From assembly GCA_905160935.1 (NCBI GenBank), contig CAJHZI010000573.1:141501-205500 (forward strand): 64,000 nt of DNA, read 5' to 3'. Positions 41,601 to 56,530 of the stretch are shown here, one piece after another (the first letter of the stretch is position 1; the number at the start of each line of letters is the position of its first letter). Made by a program: the position numbers and the translations under genes. This stretch comes from Enchytraeus crypticus. Taxonomy: Eukaryota; Annelida; Clitellata; Enchytraeida; Enchytraeidae. The notes beneath the pieces were generated by a model. It searched no databases and was not told the DNA's origin. It saw only the letters and a list, made by a program, of their open reading frames with translations.

Positions 41601-44600
41601 ATCTCGGTGTTATCCTTGATAAACACCTAACCTTCCACGAACACATAACTAAAACTTCACAAGCATGTTTATTTCATATCCGAGATCTTCGTCGAATACG
41701 TCCATATTTGTCACGTGAGACAGCTGCTACAACTGGTGCTGCCATTGTGCAATCGAAATTGGACTACTGCAATTCCCTGTTTTTAAATCTCCCTGGCAGT
41801 GAGATTGATCGATTGCAGTTTGTTCAGAATTCTCTTGCGTGAGCAATTTTTTGTAGTTCCAAGTACTCACATGTTACGCCTATTTTAAAGTCTTTGCACT
41901 GGCTAAAGATTAAAGAGCGAATCATTTACAAAACAGCTTCGTTGACCTATAAGTCCATCACCATCCCTGGACAAACTTGTATGTCTCACTTGATTAAAGT
42001 GATGCAGCCTGCTGTTACTCGGTCTTCTAAATTAATTACTCTTGTGAGACCTAGCTTTCCGCTCGAACGATTAGATAGCTTAGACCTTCGCGCTCTAAGC
42101 TATCTAATCGTTCTTTCCATCATGCTGCACGGCAGATCTGGAATTCTCTTCCATCTAATCTACGGAAATCTTCATTTGAAGCACATCGGCCTGTGCTTTC
42201 CTATGATCAGTTCCACAGGCAGTTGAAGACCTATCTTTTCCATCTCTCTTTTCCATCCAGTGTCCATGAGCAGCGACCTGCGCCTAAACCTCCTTTTCTT
42301 TAATTCCCTTCACTATGGACTGATTATCTGGATACTGAAATTTGCACCGTTTTAAACCTTCTTTTTGCTCGCCGGCTTGATTTTGTCTCAATAATGCTTG
42401 ATGTTGTCATTGATGACAGTAGCACTCTAATTGTTGTTATGTTATTATATTACAGAGATACTAGGAAATATTAACCTGTAGAGGGCGACAAATGTAAGAA
42501 GGAAAGACGAGACCAGGAGAGTCGCAGAGTTTAACGTTGCTCGTTAGGAATATCGTCTGAAAGTGTTTCGTGTGACCAGGCGTACGACTCACGCTCACTA
42601 CCTACACAATCAAATCTGCCAACATCAACCAGTTCTACTGCAATAAAGTTTAAAAATATCTGCATATTATCTTTTTATACAATTCTAGTTTTAATTAATA
42701 ATTCCAATTCTGACAATATATCATCATGAAAATCTGGAAGTATAGAAGGACGGACCAGTCTCCAGACTGAATGAAGTGTCTAGTGAATGAAGTGTCTAGT
42801 GAATGAAGTGCCTAGTGAATGAAGTGTCTCGGGAATGAAGTATCTAGTGATTGAAGTGACTAGTGAATGAAGTGTCTAATGAATGAAGTGTCTAGTGAAT
42901 GAATTGTCTAGTGAATGATGTGTCTAGTGAATGAAGTGTCTAGTGAAGGAAGTGTCTAATGAATAAAGTGTCTAATGAATGATGTGTCTAGTGAATGAAG
43001 TGTCTATGAATGAAGTGGTAAGTGAATGAAGTGTCTAGTGAATAAAGTGTCTAATGAAGGAAGTGTCTAGTAAATGAAGTGTCTAATGAATGACGTGTCT
43101 AGTGAATGAAGTGTCTAGTGAATGAAGTGTCTAATGAATGAAGTGTCTAGTGAATGAAGTGTCTAGTGAATGAAGTGTCTAGTGAATGAAGTGTCTAATG
43201 AATGAAGTGTCTAGTGAATGATGTGTCTAGTGAATGAAGTGTCTAACGAATGAAGTGTCTAATGAATGAAGTGTCTAGGGAATGAAGTATCTAGTGATTG
43301 AAGTGTCTAATGAATGAAGTGTTTACCGAATGAAGTGTCTAATGAATGAAGTGTCTAATGAATGAAGTGTCTACTGAATGAAGTGTCTAGTGAATGGAGT
43401 GTCTTGTGAATGAAGTGTCTAGTGAAAGAAGTGTCTAGTGAAAGAAGTGTCTAGTGAATGAAGTGTCAAGTGAATGAAGTGTCTAGTGAATGAAGTAATA
43501 CATAATGTATTCAGCTTACATGCGCTAGTTGAGCTTCGGTAGAGATATAATTAAATGATTTATTAAAACAAACCTTTTTTCCCATCAAGCCATTGATCAG
43601 TGAAGATTTACCAACATTTGGATAACCTGAAATACAGAAAAACTGCTCAAATGATGATATTATTTTTGAACTACAATACAACACAATACAATACAATGCA
43701 ATACTGTAAATATTTAACGTCTGGTTCCTCACCCGATGGCGATGTCAGCGACATTATAATTATATGATTTAATATGGCGAGCACCTCTTCAGATGTCGCA
43801 TAATTCAAACATAGTACTTATGAATCAGACACCACCTATGCCATAGGATCAACTCTTCCAATCAATGCAGTGCTCTTTATTGAGCGTGGTAGACGACTGT
43901 AGGAACAAGTCCCCTTGGGTCCGTGGAACGTTAATCTTGTATCGGAGCTTGCTGACGATTGGCGCTATCAATAGCAAAGATATGATTAACCATGGAAAGG
44001 ATTACTATAACCTGCCAGGAACCTGCAAGCGGTCTAGAAGATCGGACACCGGCCATGACGCCGCAATAGAAATTGTTGGAGGTTACTATTATTATTATTG
44101 TTATTATTATTATTATTATTGTTATTAATATTATTATTAAGTACCTTGGAATAAATTCACAGAATAAAAAGTGAGTTCAAGTTGAATCAGTCTACATTCA
44201 ACGAAGTCCAGTAGAGCTTAGTATCTTAATTCTATAATATAACGCATTTTCACTTCTTCTATAATATTTAATATTTTAGATAAGACAAACATTTACACGT
44301 CAGTCCATTTGTAGTAGTGTTTAGCAAATGGACACTCTTGTGAAAAAAAGGGTTGAAATAGCACTAACATTGTGATAGAATTAAATAATAAATAAATTGT
44401 GCCAAATAACATTAACATGGATATTATACGAAATCCATACATAACGCAGACATAAATTTATCGTGGACTGACAATTAACAATAATATAAATAAAATATAC
44501 ACAATTAATGAGAACAGTAACTAACGCTTAAGAGCAACAGGAAATTTATACAATGTGACAGAATGAAGCAATTGCTGCAGCAAATTACGAATATTAAACA

Positions 44601-47600
44601 TAGCTCTGATATAGGATTTCAGAGGCTGAAGTCTAGAGGAACTGCAAACAACACATCACTCATCATCATCTTCCCTTGAATCCCAGTTTAACTGGGTTCG
44701 GGATACCAATAGACTGTCTCAAATCCTCTCTCTGCTACATCGTATCATCAGTCAATCTCCTATTTAAGACTTTTCCATTAGCTTAAATTTTTGTAGTAAT
44801 TTCTGGAGTCTAGGCGCTCACCAACCGAATGCCCTTTCTGACGTTGGATGATTGGTATGTGCGCTTTAGTCGCCTTCTACGACACATGCAGTCACCGGTT
44901 GGTCAATTCTTCAAACAATCTGGACACAACGGGAAATTGCAAACAACATTTGAAAGAGAATTTTGAATTGACTGCAAACGGTTGAGAGAAGATGACAATC
45001 AATATAATATGTACACACCTACGACAATTCATAGTCATAGTCATTTGAGATATTACATCATTACATCATCATCTTAAAGACATAATGTTATCAACGAAAA
45101 ACTACATAACGCTACTTACTGTGGTCATCAAGATATTGTAAGAGTGACAGACTCACCACAACAGCCGATGGTTAGAATCCCATCTTTATACATCTCGTGC
45201 TGTTCATAGTCTGTGCTCATCACTTCCTCCTTTATCTCTCCCACTCTCTCCTCATCACTGTCTGCCCCACCCGTGTCCCTGCTGTCCTCCTCTATCTTAT
45301 CCTTCCATCCACTCAGGTTCACTTCACGATAACAATTCAAGATAAAGTCTTTCGTATTATGCTGCATAAGCGCTGACACTGGCTAGAGCCAGTGGCGAAA
45401 TCGGTAAGATACTCGACCGCGGATCAGTATGAGCAGGTTTCAAATCCTGGGCTCCCCCGTCACTGACATCGCTTTCAAATGAGGAAACTGACGTTAACCT
45501 TAGCTTTACCAGCCTTTTAACCTTTCAAACGAAAATCAGTGAATAATGAATTATATTTATTTTACTTCAGTATGCAACAATCATAAAATACAGTAACATG
45601 ATAAGTAGATAAAGCAATGGATTGTCATGGAAAATGGCAACACAGCCAGCAATCCAAAATAAAGATATTGATATTAAAAATAATAATAGTAGTAGTATTA
45701 TAAATACAGCAATAATAATTTTAAAAGGATCTTAATGCTTTGGTTGCTTTCTACGACACGTGCAGTCACCGGTTGATCAAATCTTCAAACAGGCTGGACA
45801 TAACAAGGAGAAAGAATAATAATAAAAAATAAATAAAAAATAATAATGAATATATAACAAATATAGTACTACAAATAATTTCAGAAAATAGGTAAAAGTT
45901 TAAAGTCTTTTCCACTCATTCAAGGATGATGTAAGGACATGGCAGTTTTATGAAGAATACGAAAAAACAAGAATAGTACAAATACAATTATAACTCTCCT
46001 AACACTAATATCTATAAGTTATAGATTCTGCAATGACACACAGAAGGCGCAATTATACATGAAAAGTGTAAGTCATAATGGAAAAAGACAAGAGTTTGTT
46101 GGAACGATAAATTCCGGTTATATTAAGAGAAATTAGTAAATAAAAAGTGTACTATTTTTTATACAAAAGCTAATAAAAATAGCACCAACTAATATTTTCG
46201 AAACCAATGATATAACTTTGCCATCTGAGTATTTTTATCACAGTATCTCCTGGCCACCTGAAAACATCTAGTAGGCTAAAACCGATCAGACACACATGTT
46301 GATAGCCTAAAAACAAATAAACGGTATTAAATATAAATGTCGCAGCCTACCTCTACTTCCAACAAGTTCTTGGCAGACTTTTAGAAGCTGCTTAGGTCCA
46401 ACAGCTGGTGTAAATTTTCTGCGCTTCTTTCTCTCTTTTTGCAGGACTAAGCATATTTACAATCGATAAAATATACATTTACAATTGACAGAATATAAAT
46501 TGAACACATACAAATTTATAGAATCTAAATTTAATTACTCAACGTCAAGACATCAAGAAAGATCATAATTATACATAAAACATTGATTGAATTTAAGAAG
46601 TGTACAATTTCAGTTTTTATTGATTATACTTAATTATAACGCCAAGAACTGAGCAATCATTAGTTATCAGCCACATCGGTCAGGATAGGGGCCGGCCGCG
46701 TGACTGAGTCCTGTTAACACAATAGCAGCTCATCTTTGCCTCTACGTAGTTAATAATAATAATAATAATAATAGTAAAGATTTACGTCCATTTCCTCATT
46801 CAAGGATGATGTCAGTGACGTAAGTTATTTCATTAGCGTGAATTATTCAATAGCATACAGCAATGGAACATTGGCAACTAGTTTTAAAACTTTTAAAATA
46901 ATTTGAATTCTACTGAAAGCGTAGTTAGCTTAATTTAAAACGTTAGGTTAACATTGTTAATATACTTCGTAACTGCTCAATACTGCACCACAACATGGCG
47001 CGTTGCTAAAGAAGCCGAGATATGTTGAAAACAGGCATCATACTATCAAAAATAGTATTCCACTGAACAAGAACTGAGGAAAGCAACGAGAAACCTCATC
47101 AAACGCCAAGTTATTCCCAAGCTACAGGGTACATTAACGTGCGAATAAGGTCTAACCTTTTATGTAGGGATTAATTCGTTGATCGATAGAGTGCTCTTTA
47201 TGGAGCATGAAAAGCAGCATGTGAGTAGGAAAATGTACCTTGGACCTGCCACTTGGTAGAATACAAGAGAGATTCCACAATAGAGCGCTAAGATGCACAG
47301 TACAGTAGTAGGATATATTGCTAACAAAATCAACTATTTCACAGCAATACTTCACAATGTTAGATATTTTATTGTATTTTATTTCAATACATCAACATAT
47401 CCCCCCGATGACTTATCATACTACTATACTCTAGAGCCACAAAATGTTTAACAAAGTTTACAGTTTTGTCAAGTAATATGCAATCGCTACCTGCATCATT
47501 GCCCCTGATATCTCGCTCTTCTAGAGGGAATGAAGTGAAGCAGACTACACGCAGCTGAGGGAACTTCTGCTGGAAGTAGTTGATCCAGGCAGCGACAAGA

Positions 47601-50600
47601 GGGGCAGGTGCCAGGTCTATCTTGTTGAGAATCAGTATCATGTTCTTATGTAGCTCTGAGGTCACGTGGTGGTACAGCGAGGGAGAGAAACTGAGAGCCT
47701 TGATACATACCAGAATACAAAACAATAAGAAACATAAAATACACTATAAAAAGCTGGTAAAGCTAATTAACATTAGCTATATCGGTGACGGGTGAGCCCA
47801 GGATTTGAATCACGCACATACTGATCCACGGTCGAATATCTTATCGAAATAGCCACCAGCTCTAGCCCCTAGTATAATAAGGTAATTAACAACACATAAT
47901 ACAACACAATAAGATACATGATAAGATATATAATAATATAACACAACACAATAAGATACATAACAATAAAATATAAAATGATAGGATACATAACAATATA
48001 ATAATAAAAGTAATTATTGTAATTACTTTAATTATCGCAAAAGTGAGAGTAGAATGACTCCTCCAGGTGAAGAAGCGTCATGTCCAAGCTGAGTGGCAAT
48101 ACAGATTCAGAGAAGGAAGAGATTTAGTAAGTGATACTAAAGAAACTACAAAAATCTATAAACGAAGACAACAAGAGACTCAGTATAGAATGCAAATACA
48201 GGAAAAGATCCAGCAAAAGATACAAGAAGAAATAAAGATAGAGATAAAGGAAGAATGACAGCACGACAGAGAAAAAGAGATATAAAAACAGATGCAGAAA
48301 GGAATGCAAAACCAGATACAGAAAGAGCTATAAGAAGAGATACAGGAGCAGAGACAACAAGAAAGAGCGGAAGATCTTTCTTGTTAATTAATGATTTTTT
48401 GTTAATGATTTTTCTTGTTTGTTTCTTGTTTGTTTCTTGCTTGTTTCTAAGATATATTTTAGAAGAACAAAAGGCAACGATTACTAATAACCATGGAGGG
48501 GAATGGAGGAAATAAGGAAAACTACAAAACAGAAACTAAGAAAGGAAACTATGTAACACTTGCGGTATGTCATGTGTGTACCTACGCGAACAAAAAGAAA
48601 AAGAAAAAAGAGATGCACAGAGAGATGCAGAGGCAGAATAGATATGCAGGAAAGAAACATCAAAAGATAGACAAAGAGAGATAGAAAGAAGTAACGCACA
48701 GGAAAGCGAATGTCGGCAATGAGCAGAATGAGATCAGACATTTCAATAACTCTCCACAGTTGTCTCCAGGTCTCCAGGTTTAACTCAAAGTAACTCAACT
48801 CTCGTCCAGTCTCCTGCGCTAAACTCATTACCCTCTCCACATAATCCTGCCACATCAATCAATCACGAACAGTTTAAATCCATAAATATCCTGTCGCATC
48901 ACTAGTACATGATTCAGTCAACATCATCATCATCATCCTCATCATCATAATCATCATTATCTTCCCAGTTTAACTAGGGTCGGGATACGAATAGACCTTC
49001 TCCACTCCTCTCTGTCCCATACCACATCATCAATCAATCCTCCATTTTTTTTTATTCGTTTTGGAAAATTTCGTAGCAATTTCTGGAGCAAAGCACTCAC
49101 CAACCAAATGCCCTTTCTTACGTTGGTTTGGATCTTAGTGTTTTAGTCGCCTTCTACGACACGTGCAGTCACCGTTTCGTCTATTCTTCAAACAACCTGG
49201 ACAAAACACGGGGAACTAGTACAAGATTCAGTAACATGAATAAATTAAAACCCTGATCGTGATTAGTTTTATTAATCTTCAAAAGAAATTAACAACGCTG
49301 TCATTTTACACAGACTCTATAAAAAAAAAGTAATACAATAGGACAAAATGTATTAAATACTAAACAAACTGCATTGAAACGATAACATCATTTAAAGATA
49401 AAAACAGTGGCAGCTAAGATTAATATTAGTTTTCATACTGAATTGAATTGCATATATTAAATTTTCACGAAAAACACAAATGCCATTATATACATCATAC
49501 AAGAAACAACATGAAAATTGCACATACAGGTGCGAAGGCTCTGACGCAAGCCCATCAAGTTTACAAATTTGGTATTAAAAGTTCTGGGCAGGCAATTGTA
49601 AATGTTTGCATACAAAATACTTATACACACAAAATTACATGAGATAGCTTGTAAAAATTACATAAAAACAAAAATGTATATGCAAGTAGAGACATATACA
49701 GTACACATATTCTTTGAACATTCAAGAGTAGCTAACAACAAGAATATCTTGAAGGGACACTGCCTGTGAGTCCACCTGGAAATAGAAACAAAGGCTTAAT
49801 ACTTAATAAGTAATTGAGCTTAGCTATATTGAAGCCACCAGGTCTAAGTATCTCTCCGTCATTCAAAAGAATAACAGAATAAATAATTCTGTAAATATTT
49901 TATGTAAACGGCAATGAAGCTGACATAAGTTCTATTCAATCATCACCTGTTGGGAAAATACAAATGTTGCCATAGTAACTAAGATCAACCTTAAAATATT
50001 TCTGCTCTCTTTCGTTCAGTTGCTGAGCGGACATGCAGTAGTCCCATGGAGGTCTCTTTGGCATATCAAGTCTGACAGATTTCTTAGGAGGTTTAGCAAG
50101 TTGGGCACCAGCTCCCAAGCTATTGATAATTGTCTGACTAGTAGACTGAGACACACAGCTTTCATCTGGATCGTAGCACGCCTCTACATCTATTTCTAGA
50201 GCTTCCTGAAACATTATCGAAAAATATACCATAAATACCGCAGTCAAAGAAAATAAAATATCGGAAGAAAAAATACAGAAATCAGTTTTCAGTTAATATT
50301 AGATTTCAGCCGTGTAAAGTTTCCATAGACAACTGTGAACAATGATACATACAGACAGAAGAGTGATAGAGTTTGGTAGCCTATATATTCAGTTCACAAC
50401 TTAAATTGATAGGTGAAACAAACTTCAGGTTTTTACATGTATCGCACTAAAGTACCGTACTAGATTAATATCATAATTATGAGCCTTCTGACTTACAAAG
50501 TATTATACATACATATTACACTGACTTGATAACTAGGTGATAACTAGGAAAGGCATTGTGAAACAACCTCAAAAGGCGTGTATATTCCAATCGAATAATA

Positions 50601-53600
50601 AAAATATTAATAATAATAACTAGTAACAATAACAGTTAAGATTTAACATCGGTTTCCTCATACAAGGAGGATGTCAGAGACGTCCTCTAATCACGTCACT
50701 ACAAATCGATTCACCGAAACGATTTGAACAATCATATGCTGCAGAGAAAGAAAGGAAGCAATAGAACTAGAGATACCTTAACATTAGCTGGAGAGACACA
50801 ATGTTTCAAACAGGATCAATTTATTGGTCAACAACTTTATACTCTTTAGAATTTTTTAAAGCAGATAGTGAGAAGCAATGTGTGCCTTGAATCTTCTAAT
50901 TTATGTAGCACAAGAGAATGAGATACTGACAGATTGAATGAGAATGAGGCAGCATAATTATACATCTCATTTGAGGCGGTATATTTATGCATCTCATCTG
51001 AAGCAGCAAAATAATACATCTAACCTGAGGCAGTGTAATTGCTTATAAATCTCACCTGAGGCAGCATAACTAATTAGTAATCTCACATGAGGCAGCATAA
51101 TTAATTAAAAATCTCACCTGAGGCAGCATAATTAATTAAAAATCTCACCTGAGGCAGTATAATTAATTCTAAATCTCACCTGAGGCAGCATAATTAATTA
51201 TAAATCTCATCTGAGGCAGCATAATTAAATAGAAATCTAACCTGAGGCAGCACAATTACTTATAAATCTCACCTGAGGCAGCATAATCAATTATAAATCT
51301 AACCTGAGGCAGCATAATTACTTATAAATCTCACCTGAGGCAGCATAATTAATTATACATCTCACCTGAGGCAGCATAATTAATTACAAATCTCACCTGA
51401 GGCAGCATAATTAATTATAAATCTCATCTGAGGCAGCATAATTAGTTATAAATCTACCCAAGGCAGCATAATTACTTATAAATCTCACCTGAGGCAGCAT
51501 AATTAATTATACATCTCATCTGAGCAGCATAATTAATTACAAATCTCACCTGAGGCAGCAAGTTGATTGGCTGTCGTGCAAGAGCGCCACGCTGCTTAGC
51601 CGTTTTCTTGCTATCAGTCTGAAACTGTAACTTGTATCTAATAACACAAATAACTGGAACAAGTAAATAAATTCTATTATATTCTACACAAATTAAATAT
51701 TACTTCGAAGAGAGATCTTCGAAGTAATATCAATCTTTACATTTAGTTTAACTTCCCTATGAAAAATAAAGATATAATAAGTTAGCAATATTGATTTAAG
51801 AAAGTTACTCTTCTAGGCATGTTCTGAGTCACACAATATATTGTAGAGGAGAAGCAGACAATAAAGCTAATGTACTACAAGTCTTAATACAATCATATTT
51901 GGCAGAAATGGAAAAATCCCAAAGTCTAGTCCAACATCAGCAAACCAATAGTGATTTCCAATGGTGCAGCAATTGACATAAAATCTACCTTCATATTACA
52001 GTAGTCACAGGACAAAATGCACAATAGGCTACATAAATGTGTACTGATACTACACAAAAAGTTTTCTTTGAACACTTTTGTAAAATAGTCGTTTAAACAG
52101 ACTTGAAAATATATTTTGTGACATTTTCATGCATCAATATACAAAAAGCTAAAAGCTGTGAAACTAATTGTAATGACTGTTTATGTATCACATGGAGTAC
52201 TGCCAGAAATGGTCCAGCTGGAACTCAAACTGATGGCCTCTTGCTTATCAGGCAAGCATGCTATCCATTCACATTCCATTTGCTTTCCATTCATGCTATT
52301 CATTTGTGTTTCCATAAACACATCTCTCTCTCTCTCTCTTCAGCCATTCAACTGGTACTAATAATTACTATGTATATTTACTATGTATCTTCTATGTATC
52401 CTGACACTAGTTAAACTGGGATTCAGGGGAAGATGATGATGATGCTGATTTGCTATGTATTCAATTTAATAAATTTTATTAGCTCAGCATAGAGGGTGAG
52501 ATAACACCATGGAATCCTAAATGATTTGAGCCACAGCAAATTCCTGACAGTGAGAATCCTAGAGTGCCGACCACATAGTCATGTCCTTTACGATGCATCT
52601 ATTTTATTATCTGTATATAATATATATGCACAATTTGGACATAATCATTTATTGATTATGCGTAAATGCATGTATACAGGGCCGGTATTCGGATAACTGA
52701 CTAAACTAAACAGTCTAATAATTTCAACATGTTTTAAAGGGTATCATCACCAATATCACTTTGATATATAATGTGTATAAAGTTCTTGCACCTATTGATT
52801 AATGATAGATTATAAATTTACTACCTATTGGGATCATGTCTAGTGAAGGCGGAGTCAACAGCTATTGATTGATAAGAGATTATAATATTACCTATTGGGG
52901 TCATGTCTAGTGGAGGCGGAGTCAACAGGTTGCTTGTTTAATTTCTTAACTTGCACATCCTGCTTCCTGTCAGATCTTGTTCCATCTCTTGATCTTGCCG
53001 CACTATGAGAACGTCTTTCATCATCGTCGTCGTCATCATCACTATCATCATCTGTTGCAAAAATTAACATTGTAGGTACCTGATAAAAATTTCCATTAAA
53101 TTTTAATTAGTACCTGAAAGTAAAATTCAATAAATTTTAAATAATACCTAACTGAATATCCATGTGACTATAAATTTAATTAGATAATTTCCTAATGCCT
53201 TTTATTATTTAACCATTTAAGCTCAAGATATTAATTCATTTTGCTAAAGTATTATACATTATCCATTTTTCCTTCTGCTATTATCAAGCATTTCACTAAA
53301 AAGGAAGGTACCCGATATTTTTGAAAATCATTATCAAATTGAAGTTAAATCCATCCCTAAAGACATCTTTATTACATTTCATGTAACAACAATGGGAATG
53401 CTACTGTCATCTATGACAACATTGAGCACTATTAAGTCCAAACCGGGGATCAAATGGAAGGCCCAAAATCCAAAAATAATACACAGTAAAATATCAAAAC
53501 AAAGAATTATTATTATTTGCAATTAAAAATATAAGTAAAATTTATCATAACAGATTTCAGTACAAAAATGTAAAAAATATTGATATTATAGAATTAAAAG

Positions 53601-54574: not shown

Positions 54575-54703
54575 AAGCTAAAAGCTAAGGCTAACGTCAG
54601 CGTCCTCACTCGAAAGCGATGTCAGTGATGGGCAAGCCCAGGATTTGAACCCGCACCTACTGATCCGCGGTTGAATATCTTACCGACTTCGCAACTGGCT
54701 CCA
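54575..54703 (-). mobile_element. tRNA-derived SINE, family C
   Basis: Reverse complement of family C, with GGCTAACGTCAGCGTCCTCA, GGATTTGAACCCGCACCTAC and ATCTTACCGACTTCGCAACT. It abuts the 3' end of the neighbouring LINE with no spacer and replaces that LINE's last few hundred bases. Confidence 0.82.
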
Positions 54704-56530
54704 GGACTTCCTCATTTGTAACCTTTTGAGTCCAGCTAATCCTCTCCTTTCTTCTCCAAATCCACATTTCCAATGCCTCCAGTTTCCTAATATCTTCCAT
54801 CCTTAAGGTCCATGTTTCACATCCATACAATAGCGTGGTCCAAACCACAGCTTTCACTATCTTTATCTTTGTGTCTTTCTTTAGAATTTTTGTTAATAGT
54901 TCTTTTTTACTACCAAAGGCCGCTTTTGCTCGTGCAATCCTACTGCATATTTCTGTCTCACATTTCTCATCATCGGTTATAGTATGACCCAAATATTTGA
55001 AACTCCTTATCTGTTCCAATTTCGTACCATTTATTGTGATATTAACTTCACCTTTATTATTGGACACTCTCATAACCTTGGTCTTTTTTATATTAATCTT
55101 CATACCATATCTTAGGGCCGTATCATTCAGCGTATCCATTATCTTCTGCAATTCAATCTCGCTGCCCACTACCATTCCTTGGTCATCTGCAAATTGTACA
55201 TCTTGTAACAAATCCCTCCTACTTTTATTCCTTCTTCCAAGACTTCCATGGCTTCCTCCATAATTGCTTCAGCATAAATGATCAACAGCAGCGGCGAAAT
55301 GCTACAACCTTGTCTTACTCCACGTCCTATTTCACCTTCTTCTAAGTATTCTTGTTAGATTTTGATTACTGCTCTTTGATTCATGTACAAGTTCAAAATT
55401 AGTCTTCTATCTCTCCAGTCAATTCCTATTCTTTTTAAGATATTCATCATTGTTATCCAATCACTCCTGCCAAAGGCCTTCTCGAAGTCTACAAAGCATA
55501 CAAAAACGTCATTTCCATATTCTAAGCTTCTTTCGCAAAAAACCCGCACTACTCCTATTGCTTCTCTTGTGCTGCATCCTTTCCTAAAATCAAATTGTGT
55601 CTTGCTCAGTATCATCTCTGCTTTCGACTGAATGCGATTATTTACTATCTTTAATAAGATCTTCGATGCATGAGGTATTAAGCTGATTGTTCTGCAATCC
55701 GAACACTCCACAGCATTGGCTTTTTTGGGAATTGGAATCATCACAGACTTGGTAGTCGTCTGGCCAAATACCTGTACTGTACACTTTCATACATACCTCC
55801 ATTAACTTTATGAGTGTTTCTCCTTCCAACATTTTTAAGAATTCTGCTGGGATTTCATCTATTCCGGCTGCCTTTCCCTTCTACATACTGTTAATTGCAG
55901 AATAAATTTCCTCCTTCATTAAATCGGGGCCCCTTTTATCGTCTTCTATGATATTCTCTTCTTCTATTTTAAAATCATCTTGAACTGGTTTCCCAGCTTA
56001 TCATACAATTCCTCTACATATTCTCTCCATCTTTCTTTTACTTCTTCCAGCTCTGTCTTCAATTTCCCATCTTTACCCATTATAGTAATGTTCTTTGTAT
56101 CTCCTTTCTTTTTCATATCGGTTCTTGTTAATATCCTGACTTCCTGGTATAATAGATCTGACCTCCCTCTTCTATCATATTCTGCTAAAATTATCACACT
56201 TTTCACTCCACCAATGATCTTTTGCTTTGTCTGTAATTCTTCTAAGTTCACTGTTTAAGCTTCTATATTTCCTTTGGCCATGACTGGTGTCAATACTTTT
56301 CCATTTCCTCCTTTCATCCATTTTGTCTAGCATCTCGCTTGTGATCCAAGGTATTTTAGCTGTATTAGCTTTAAGAAAGCCATAAACTTCTTTTGCACCT
56401 ATTTTAATAGCTTCCTTTAGCTGACACCATCTTTCATTTACCCCTGTTCTTTCATAGTCCTTCATTTCCTTAATTTTTCTTTCCACTGCTTCCTGAAACT
56501 GACTTCTTTTCTCGTTCAATCCATTCAAAT
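54700..56530 (-). mobile_element. Non-LTR retrotransposon, family 2, decayed long copy
   Basis: Reading on the minus strand: NERWCQLKEAIKIGAKEVYG (56,175-56,528); QTKQKIIGGVKSVIILAEYD (55,964-56,251); LMEVCMKVYSTGIWPDD (55,638-55,832); FVDFEKAFGRSDW (motif A, 55,355-55,744); and QFADDQGMVVGS (motif C) with FKYLGHTITDDEKCETEI and LLYGCETWTLRMEDIRK (54,657-55,211). Each block is in a separate frame, so the copy has several frameshifts and stops. It is the best guide to the intact order of the family. Confidence 0.9.

Follow-up and report, generated by a model that had tools for sequence, protein, structure and literature searches.

A minisatellite built on an exon-intron junction of GNL1 in Enchytraeus crypticus, resembling the mirages of amphioxus

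Minisatellites whose unit spans an exon-intron boundary have been described in amphioxus under the name "mirages", in Adh3, the globin genes BflGb6 and BflGb9, TnC and PGBD5 (PMC3087553, PMC3902484). According to these papers, the unit measures 10–72 bp in Adh3 and 150–160 bp in the globins, splicing in lancelets is not disturbed, and junction arrays were proposed as a source of new introns. In human, a VNTR in intron 18 of ABCA7 (25 bp x 23.7 in the reference) begins at the GT of the exon 18 donor; the decoy 25 nt on is reported to be used in some transcripts regardless of array length, adding 25 nt and shifting the frame, and longer alleles show more skipping of exon 19 (PMC5954066). New introns are known to arise when a tandem duplication of AGGT, or of a stretch that crosses an exon-intron boundary, supplies new splice sites (potato RdRp, PMC4974935; review, PMC3443670), and minisatellites of about 30 bp have been reported at exon-intron boundaries of human segmental duplications, in recent paralogs with altered introns (PMC2812944). 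An earthworm metallothionein gene carries minisatellites in intron 1, with no junction copies described in the accessible part of that paper (PMC12783039). In the papers that we consulted, mostly those available without subscription, we found no case of mirages outside lancelets.

The array that we describe here lies in GNL1 of the annelid E. crypticus, in a 64,000-nt stretch of assembly GCA_905160935.1 (contig CAJHZI010000573.1, positions 141,501 to 205,500) that we call the window. The main features are collected in Table 1.

Table 1. Features of the GNL1 locus, with positions counted from the first base of the window.
Feature	Position	Strand	Basis
GNL1, eight exons	54303 to 45157	minus	single open frame, GT/AG junctions
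Exon 2 donor duplication, 67 bp x 2 (37 nt of exon 2 and 30 nt of intron 2)	52792..52928	minus	TRF, gene model
GNL1 exon 3, 88 nt, terminating in TTGCTGCCTCAG	51550..51637	minus	eight-exon open frame and homolog alignment
GNL1 intron 3, 1344 nt	50206..51549	minus	gene model
GNL1 exon 4, acceptor TTTCAG/GAAGCT	49990..50205	minus	gene model
Junction minisatellite, 20 units and a broken tail, extending into intron 3	50945..51560	minus	TRF and anchoring
Unit 1, the true exon 3 junction, CAG/GTGAGAT, first intron base 51549	51530..51560	minus	donor score 10.35
Distal units u18–u20, shorter and most diverged	50955..51035	minus	pairwise differences
Nine intact decoy donors	51055..51488	minus	score equal to the true donor

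The gene model has eight exons and covers only a part of the gene. A protein search with its product returned 700 proteins; among the 120 listed, the named ones are mostly animal GNL1 and the top identity is 47%. The last codons of exon 3 are CTG CCT CAG, followed by GTGAGAT, and exon 4 begins GAA GCT CTA. Aligned to homologs (the first 60 of the 120 listed), the eight columns around the exon 3/4 joint are free of gaps in 60/60, and the proline of the LPQ that ends exon 3 is present in 41/60, with a leucine before it in 33/60. A first-pass annotation of the sequence had named the gene GNL1 and ended exon 3 at this CAG/GTGAGAT junction, and both assignments hold with the open-frame model and the gap-free homologs. 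The exon 3 donor is the highest-scoring of the eight in the model. The model is weaker away from exon 3, as the donors of exons 1, 2 and 5 (3/8) and the acceptors of exons 6–8 (3/7) score within the lowest 3% of training sites.

TRF reported the array as 31 bp x 17.8 with 88% matches and a score of 850 at 51010–51560, along with a second, weaker and longer frame at 50945–51560. We counted units by anchoring on TGCTGCCTCAGGTGAGAT, which gave 20 units and a broken tail. Units are 31 bp long except for u2 and u4 (30 bp) and u18–u20 (27 bp), and each repeats the final 11 bases of exon 3 and the initial 20 of intron 3, with the consensus TGCTGCCTCAG/GTGAGATTTATAATTAATTA. This agrees with the earlier description of about 20 units of 31 bp that copy the junction, with the true donor in the terminal unit. 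The span first given for the array, 50945..51640, needs a small correction: the array begins at 51560, 11 bases into exon 3, and 51640 lies approximately at the start of exon 3 (51637).

Several pairs of units are identical (u1 = u6, u3 = u8, u5 = u12), and u2 differs from u7 at two positions. Since u1 matches u6, u3 matches u8 and u2 nearly matches u7, the real junction appears to take part in block exchange, and the exon-side end has probably swapped blocks with the array interior recently. Units u18–u20 differ from u1–u17 at 8–13 positions and among themselves at 6–9, gap columns counted, and may be the oldest or an unhomogenised edge of the array.

The likeness to mirages is close on several points: the unit spans the exon-intron boundary, it is of minisatellite size (31 bp), and many units keep the AG or GT, including nine of the 19 GNL1 decoys with a full donor. 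The differences are that GNL1 has 20 units of 31 bp at a single donor, and that its exon-side unit joins the block exchange, unlike BflGb6, where the accessible text reports boundary units as excluded from homogenisation. Normal splicing despite the repeats is what was reported for the lancelet mirages. Judged by its sequence the host is not an amphioxus: its GNL1 is 40–41% identical to the Branchiostoma sequences among the 120 of 700 proteins listed, and in a GNL1 tree of 52 rows it forms a branch of its own with weak placement, whereas two Branchiostoma rows group with the vertebrates (100/98). As in ABCA7, the array sits on the exon's own donor and its units offer potential decoys; the ABCA7 repeat differs in that it starts at the GT, is C-rich, and is described, in the accessible text, for one locus and with no mention of copied exon bases. 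The human segmental-duplication repeats share the boundary position and a unit near 30 bp, but the GNL1 model keeps a conserved frame, and unlike the potato RdRp case GNL1 shows no evidence of a new intron. The first-pass annotation knew of no described exon-junction amplification of this sort in GNL1. We also found no description of a junction array in this gene, in literature searches that were not aimed at GNL1; as a kind, however, such amplification is not undescribed, given the amphioxus mirages and ABCA7 intron 18. The novelty lies in the host lineage, in how long the donor ladder is and in how densely such arrays occur.

We then considered where the array came from. It is extremely improbable that the array is a mobile element or dispersed repeat with no relation to the junction and an accidental likeness to it. 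The genome is rich in minisatellites, and 7.2% of the window is taken up by arrays with a period of at least 10, which is the one point in favor of such a chance resemblance. Against it, an exact search of the 524-Mb genome for the 18-base core gave nine matches, far above chance, and every one of them is inside the GNL1 array. A DNA search of the same genome, in which only the best candidates were scored, found no related array elsewhere. Neither the core count nor this search turned up the unrelated look-alike repeat that had been named at the outset as one way to refute the junction origin. The second match of the DNA search was considered as a relative and rejected, as it is an array of an unrelated AT-rich 29-mer that lacks the core.

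Because homologs are gap-free at the joint in 60/60 and no related array lies elsewhere in the 524 Mb within reach of the search, we infer that the array grew from the junction; this is well supported, and it upholds the direction from exon to intron that was first proposed. The same alignment disfavours an array that invaded the exon. As the exonic part of a unit is just 11 bases long, the array could have converted the end of the exon, and one observation counts against simple growth from the junction: the final codon of exon 3 (51550–51552) is CAG for Q, where 54/60 homologs have E. A CAG at the end of the exon moves the exonic side of the donor nearer to the usual consensus.

Nine of the 19 decoys share the score of 10.35 with the true site, under a donor matrix whose training set was 32 donors from the same genome, themselves chosen with a generic matrix. 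These intact decoys lie at +61 (first intron base 51488), +153 (51396), +184 (51365), +215 (51334), +277 (51272), +370 (51179), +401 (51148), +432 (51117) and +494 (51055), and they form the ladder of equivalent donors that was first reported. The ten others comprise five with ATGAG, three with GTTAG, one CAT/GTGAG that has lost the G at -1, and one TTGG/GTAGAT. Use of the +61 decoy is predicted to add 61 nt and shift the frame, as originally read, with a stop 41 nt into exon 4. All units from +92 onward keep an in-frame TAA, and the frame that is open from the true donor meets a TAA at codon 26, again as first reported. The sole decoy that would stay in frame without a stop is the dead unit 2 at +30. 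Every full-consensus decoy predicts a premature stop, and transcripts spliced there would presumably undergo nonsense-mediated decay.

If the ladder were used, a donor at +61 or beyond would be chosen, or exon 4 left out, in some of the transcripts, and the length of the array would tune GNL1 dosage through decay, somewhat as in human ABCA7. Nine decoys that equal the true donor in score fit with this, as does the accessible account of ABCA7, in which some transcripts use the first decoy and the next exon is skipped more often with longer alleles. However, decoy usage in ABCA7 is reported to be independent of length, undisturbed splicing is reported for the lancelet mirages, and in GNL1 each full-consensus decoy would lead to a premature stop. 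We consider it unlikely that the ladder is used in this way; splicing most likely uses the exon-side unit.

The units also invite a second reading, in which CAG/GTGAG serves as an acceptor and then as a regenerated donor, so that the intron is removed stepwise and the mRNA is unchanged. Recursive splice sites, or ratchet points, combine a strong acceptor with a donor directly after it. AG/GT is present in 13/20 units (10 GTGAG, 3 GTTAG), and the acceptor score of the commonest unit, 5.65, exceeds that of 91% of the AGs in a 13-kb stretch of GNL1. Among 64 sampled acceptors the same score ranks only at the 16th percentile, so these sites have a strong donor and a weak acceptor. An intron of 1344 nt would hardly need stepwise removal, and in many of the acceptor arrays that we sampled (see below) no GT follows the AG. 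For that last reason we dropped the idea that AG/GT in each junction unit is a general rule. We think recursive splicing very improbable here.

The CAG/ATGAG units raised the question of whether selection removes decoy donors. In the 18-base core, with gaps taken as changes, positions +1 and +3 are changed in 9/40 cells vs 11/320 for the other 16 positions (Fisher P = 7e-5, which assumes independent units although the units are related), and the lone in-frame, stop-free decoy at +30 is dead. But the units share ancestry (u5 = u12; u19 and u20 are adjacent), so the +1 changes may represent three or fewer events, and other positions change up to 5–6 times in 20. In the other 18 arrays that we checked by hand (see below), GT or AG is kept in 50/51 detected decoys, under an identity threshold that favours intact copies. 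Dead decoys are no proof of selection; we regard selection as rather doubtful and lean towards drift and turnover.

We believe that the array is probably of the mirage kind, with a tandem duplication of the exon 3 donor junction as its seed. Slippage or unequal exchange would have placed copies of the 11 exon bases and 20 intron bases in intron 3, and subsequent block exchanges would have spread and homogenised the copies. The spliceosome would define exon 3 by its acceptor and the exon body and then take the donor on the exon side. The decoys would be largely silent, with a rare slip leading to a premature stop and decay, and a function of the array would not be required.

Such an array is not peculiar to the exon 3 junction. 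Exon 2 of GNL1 has its own donor duplication, which spans the boundary as well, with the first base of the true donor at 52891 and that of the decoy at 52824; use of the decoy is predicted to give a stop directly past the junction. In total 2/8 donors and 0/8 exon starts of the GNL1 model fall in arrays, to be set beside the 7.2% of the window that arrays occupy. A further 17 junctions, checked by hand, have arrays of the same sort.

These further junctions came from a sample of three families, for which the genome holds at least 137 protein kinase, at least 81 myosin head and at least 82 dynein DHC_N2 exon matches. We examined the DNA of 30 kinase and 30 myosin loci chosen by score, and of four myosin and four dynein blocks chosen by exon density. 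The myosin blocks L072 and L075 hold exons with arrays that had been seen before (L062; L045 and L049) and replace those loci, so that each is counted once. The overlapping single loci L044/L046 and L058/L065 were kept, as were L038/L039, which are paralogs. We left out the truncated L031 and the nine myosin loci that blocks already covered; ten loci that were truncated or had a long frame were left out of one earlier count only. After merging there were 59 loci with 103 exons and 194 called junctions, a total that includes GNL1.

A junction was called crossed when a TRF array of period 15 or more and score 50 or more covered at least 8 bases on each side. By this rule arrays cross 19/194 junctions (9.8%), comprising 12/97 acceptors and 7/97 donors, and 17/179 when GNL1 is removed. 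Positions at least 150 nt from matched exons are spanned at 7.5% under the same rule (about 14 of 194 expected), so the crossing rate is not clearly above background. A rate this near to background suggests that splice junctions are roughly as open to arrays as introns are. Array coverage within exons is 1.2%.

When we checked the crossings by hand, 19 arrays were found to copy the junction, at 12 acceptors and 7 donors, so that both the 5' and the 3' boundaries of exons are affected, as in mirages. The L077 donor (3074) was rejected as a simple repeat and the L018 donor was added. Junctions were moved by hand in L019, L074, L075 and the L076 donor; after the move L074 has 6 exon bases in its array, which is below the 8-base rule. 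The exact edge is uncertain in L073 and the L076 donor. In L078 (2848) the best-scoring array ends 4 bases short, and another TRF row (2502–2925) crosses. Units of the 18 arrays other than GNL1 exon 3 are 36–151 bp, and examples include the L074 acceptor in what we take to be a myosin P-loop exon, dynein exons in L076–L078 and the L018 donor. At a threshold of 17/24 matching bases we detected 67 decoys in the 19 arrays, 63 of which keep the GT or AG; this threshold favours intact copies, and the most diverged GNL1 units were missed. In all 19 cases the exon-side copy is the one contiguous with a conserved coding frame, although in L060 and L074 the frames stay open upstream too. The 19 cases support growth from the junction.

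The pair L018 and L023, paralogs that we assume to be PAK-like kinases, differ at the same donor: L018 has the donor array, and L023 has no junction copy and a different array about 40 bases on, a contrast that also favours growth from the junction. In the kinase paralogs L038 and L039 (85% alike over 677 bases) one and the same junction has an acceptor array, in which we detected 4 decoys for L038 and 1 for L039; this points either to an older shared array or to a repeated origin. Short repeats of the TGAT/TTGAT type lie directly upstream of acceptors as part of junction units in L064, L073, L077, L078 and GNL1 exon 5 (48847–48866).

Studies of splice-site choice usually work with a small number of engineered competitors. 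At GNL1 exon 3, ten donors of equal score occur naturally within a single intron, and the genome has further donor and acceptor ladders. Such ladders would permit a direct test of position relative to the exon against site strength, and many junction arrays in one genome make the intron-source idea testable across relatives and alleles.

Arrays are denser just outside exons than deeper in introns. They cover 21.1% of the intron at 20–100 nt from the junction vs 7.5% at more than 300 nt from matched exons, and 20.9% vs 7.2% without GNL1 (bootstrap interval of the difference over loci 6.4–20.9 points). In a binned profile of the same set, coverage is 21.8% at 51–100 nt vs 11.2–11.4% at 401–1500 nt, with the intervals touching. 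The enrichment is two- to threefold, and its size is rough because the junction score is simple, the deep part includes unmatched exons and only three families were sampled. It goes beyond random duplication alone and in this respect counts against our account of the GNL1 array. One possible reading, which we put forward tentatively and think somewhat improbable, is that a process at exon edges preferentially seeds tandem duplication at or beside splice junctions. About one in ten splice sites would then be surrounded by near-identical competitors in an array, turnover of splice sites and the birth of new introns would have a standing nursery in these arrays, and the spliceosome would have only position by which to rank identical sites.

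The surroundings of GNL1 contain other repeats. Just upstream of the gene, at 54660–55998 on the minus strand, there are broken frames, which presumably resemble the reverse transcriptase of a non-LTR element, and part of this region is found again in L075 (94% alike) and in L019 (92%). A dispersed repeat of about 300 bp lies at about 44654–44938 and again at 48929–49221 and is 77–89% alike at several other loci. A separate minisatellite, 16 bp x 45.6 with the unit TGAATGAAGTGTCTAG, occupies 42768–43496.
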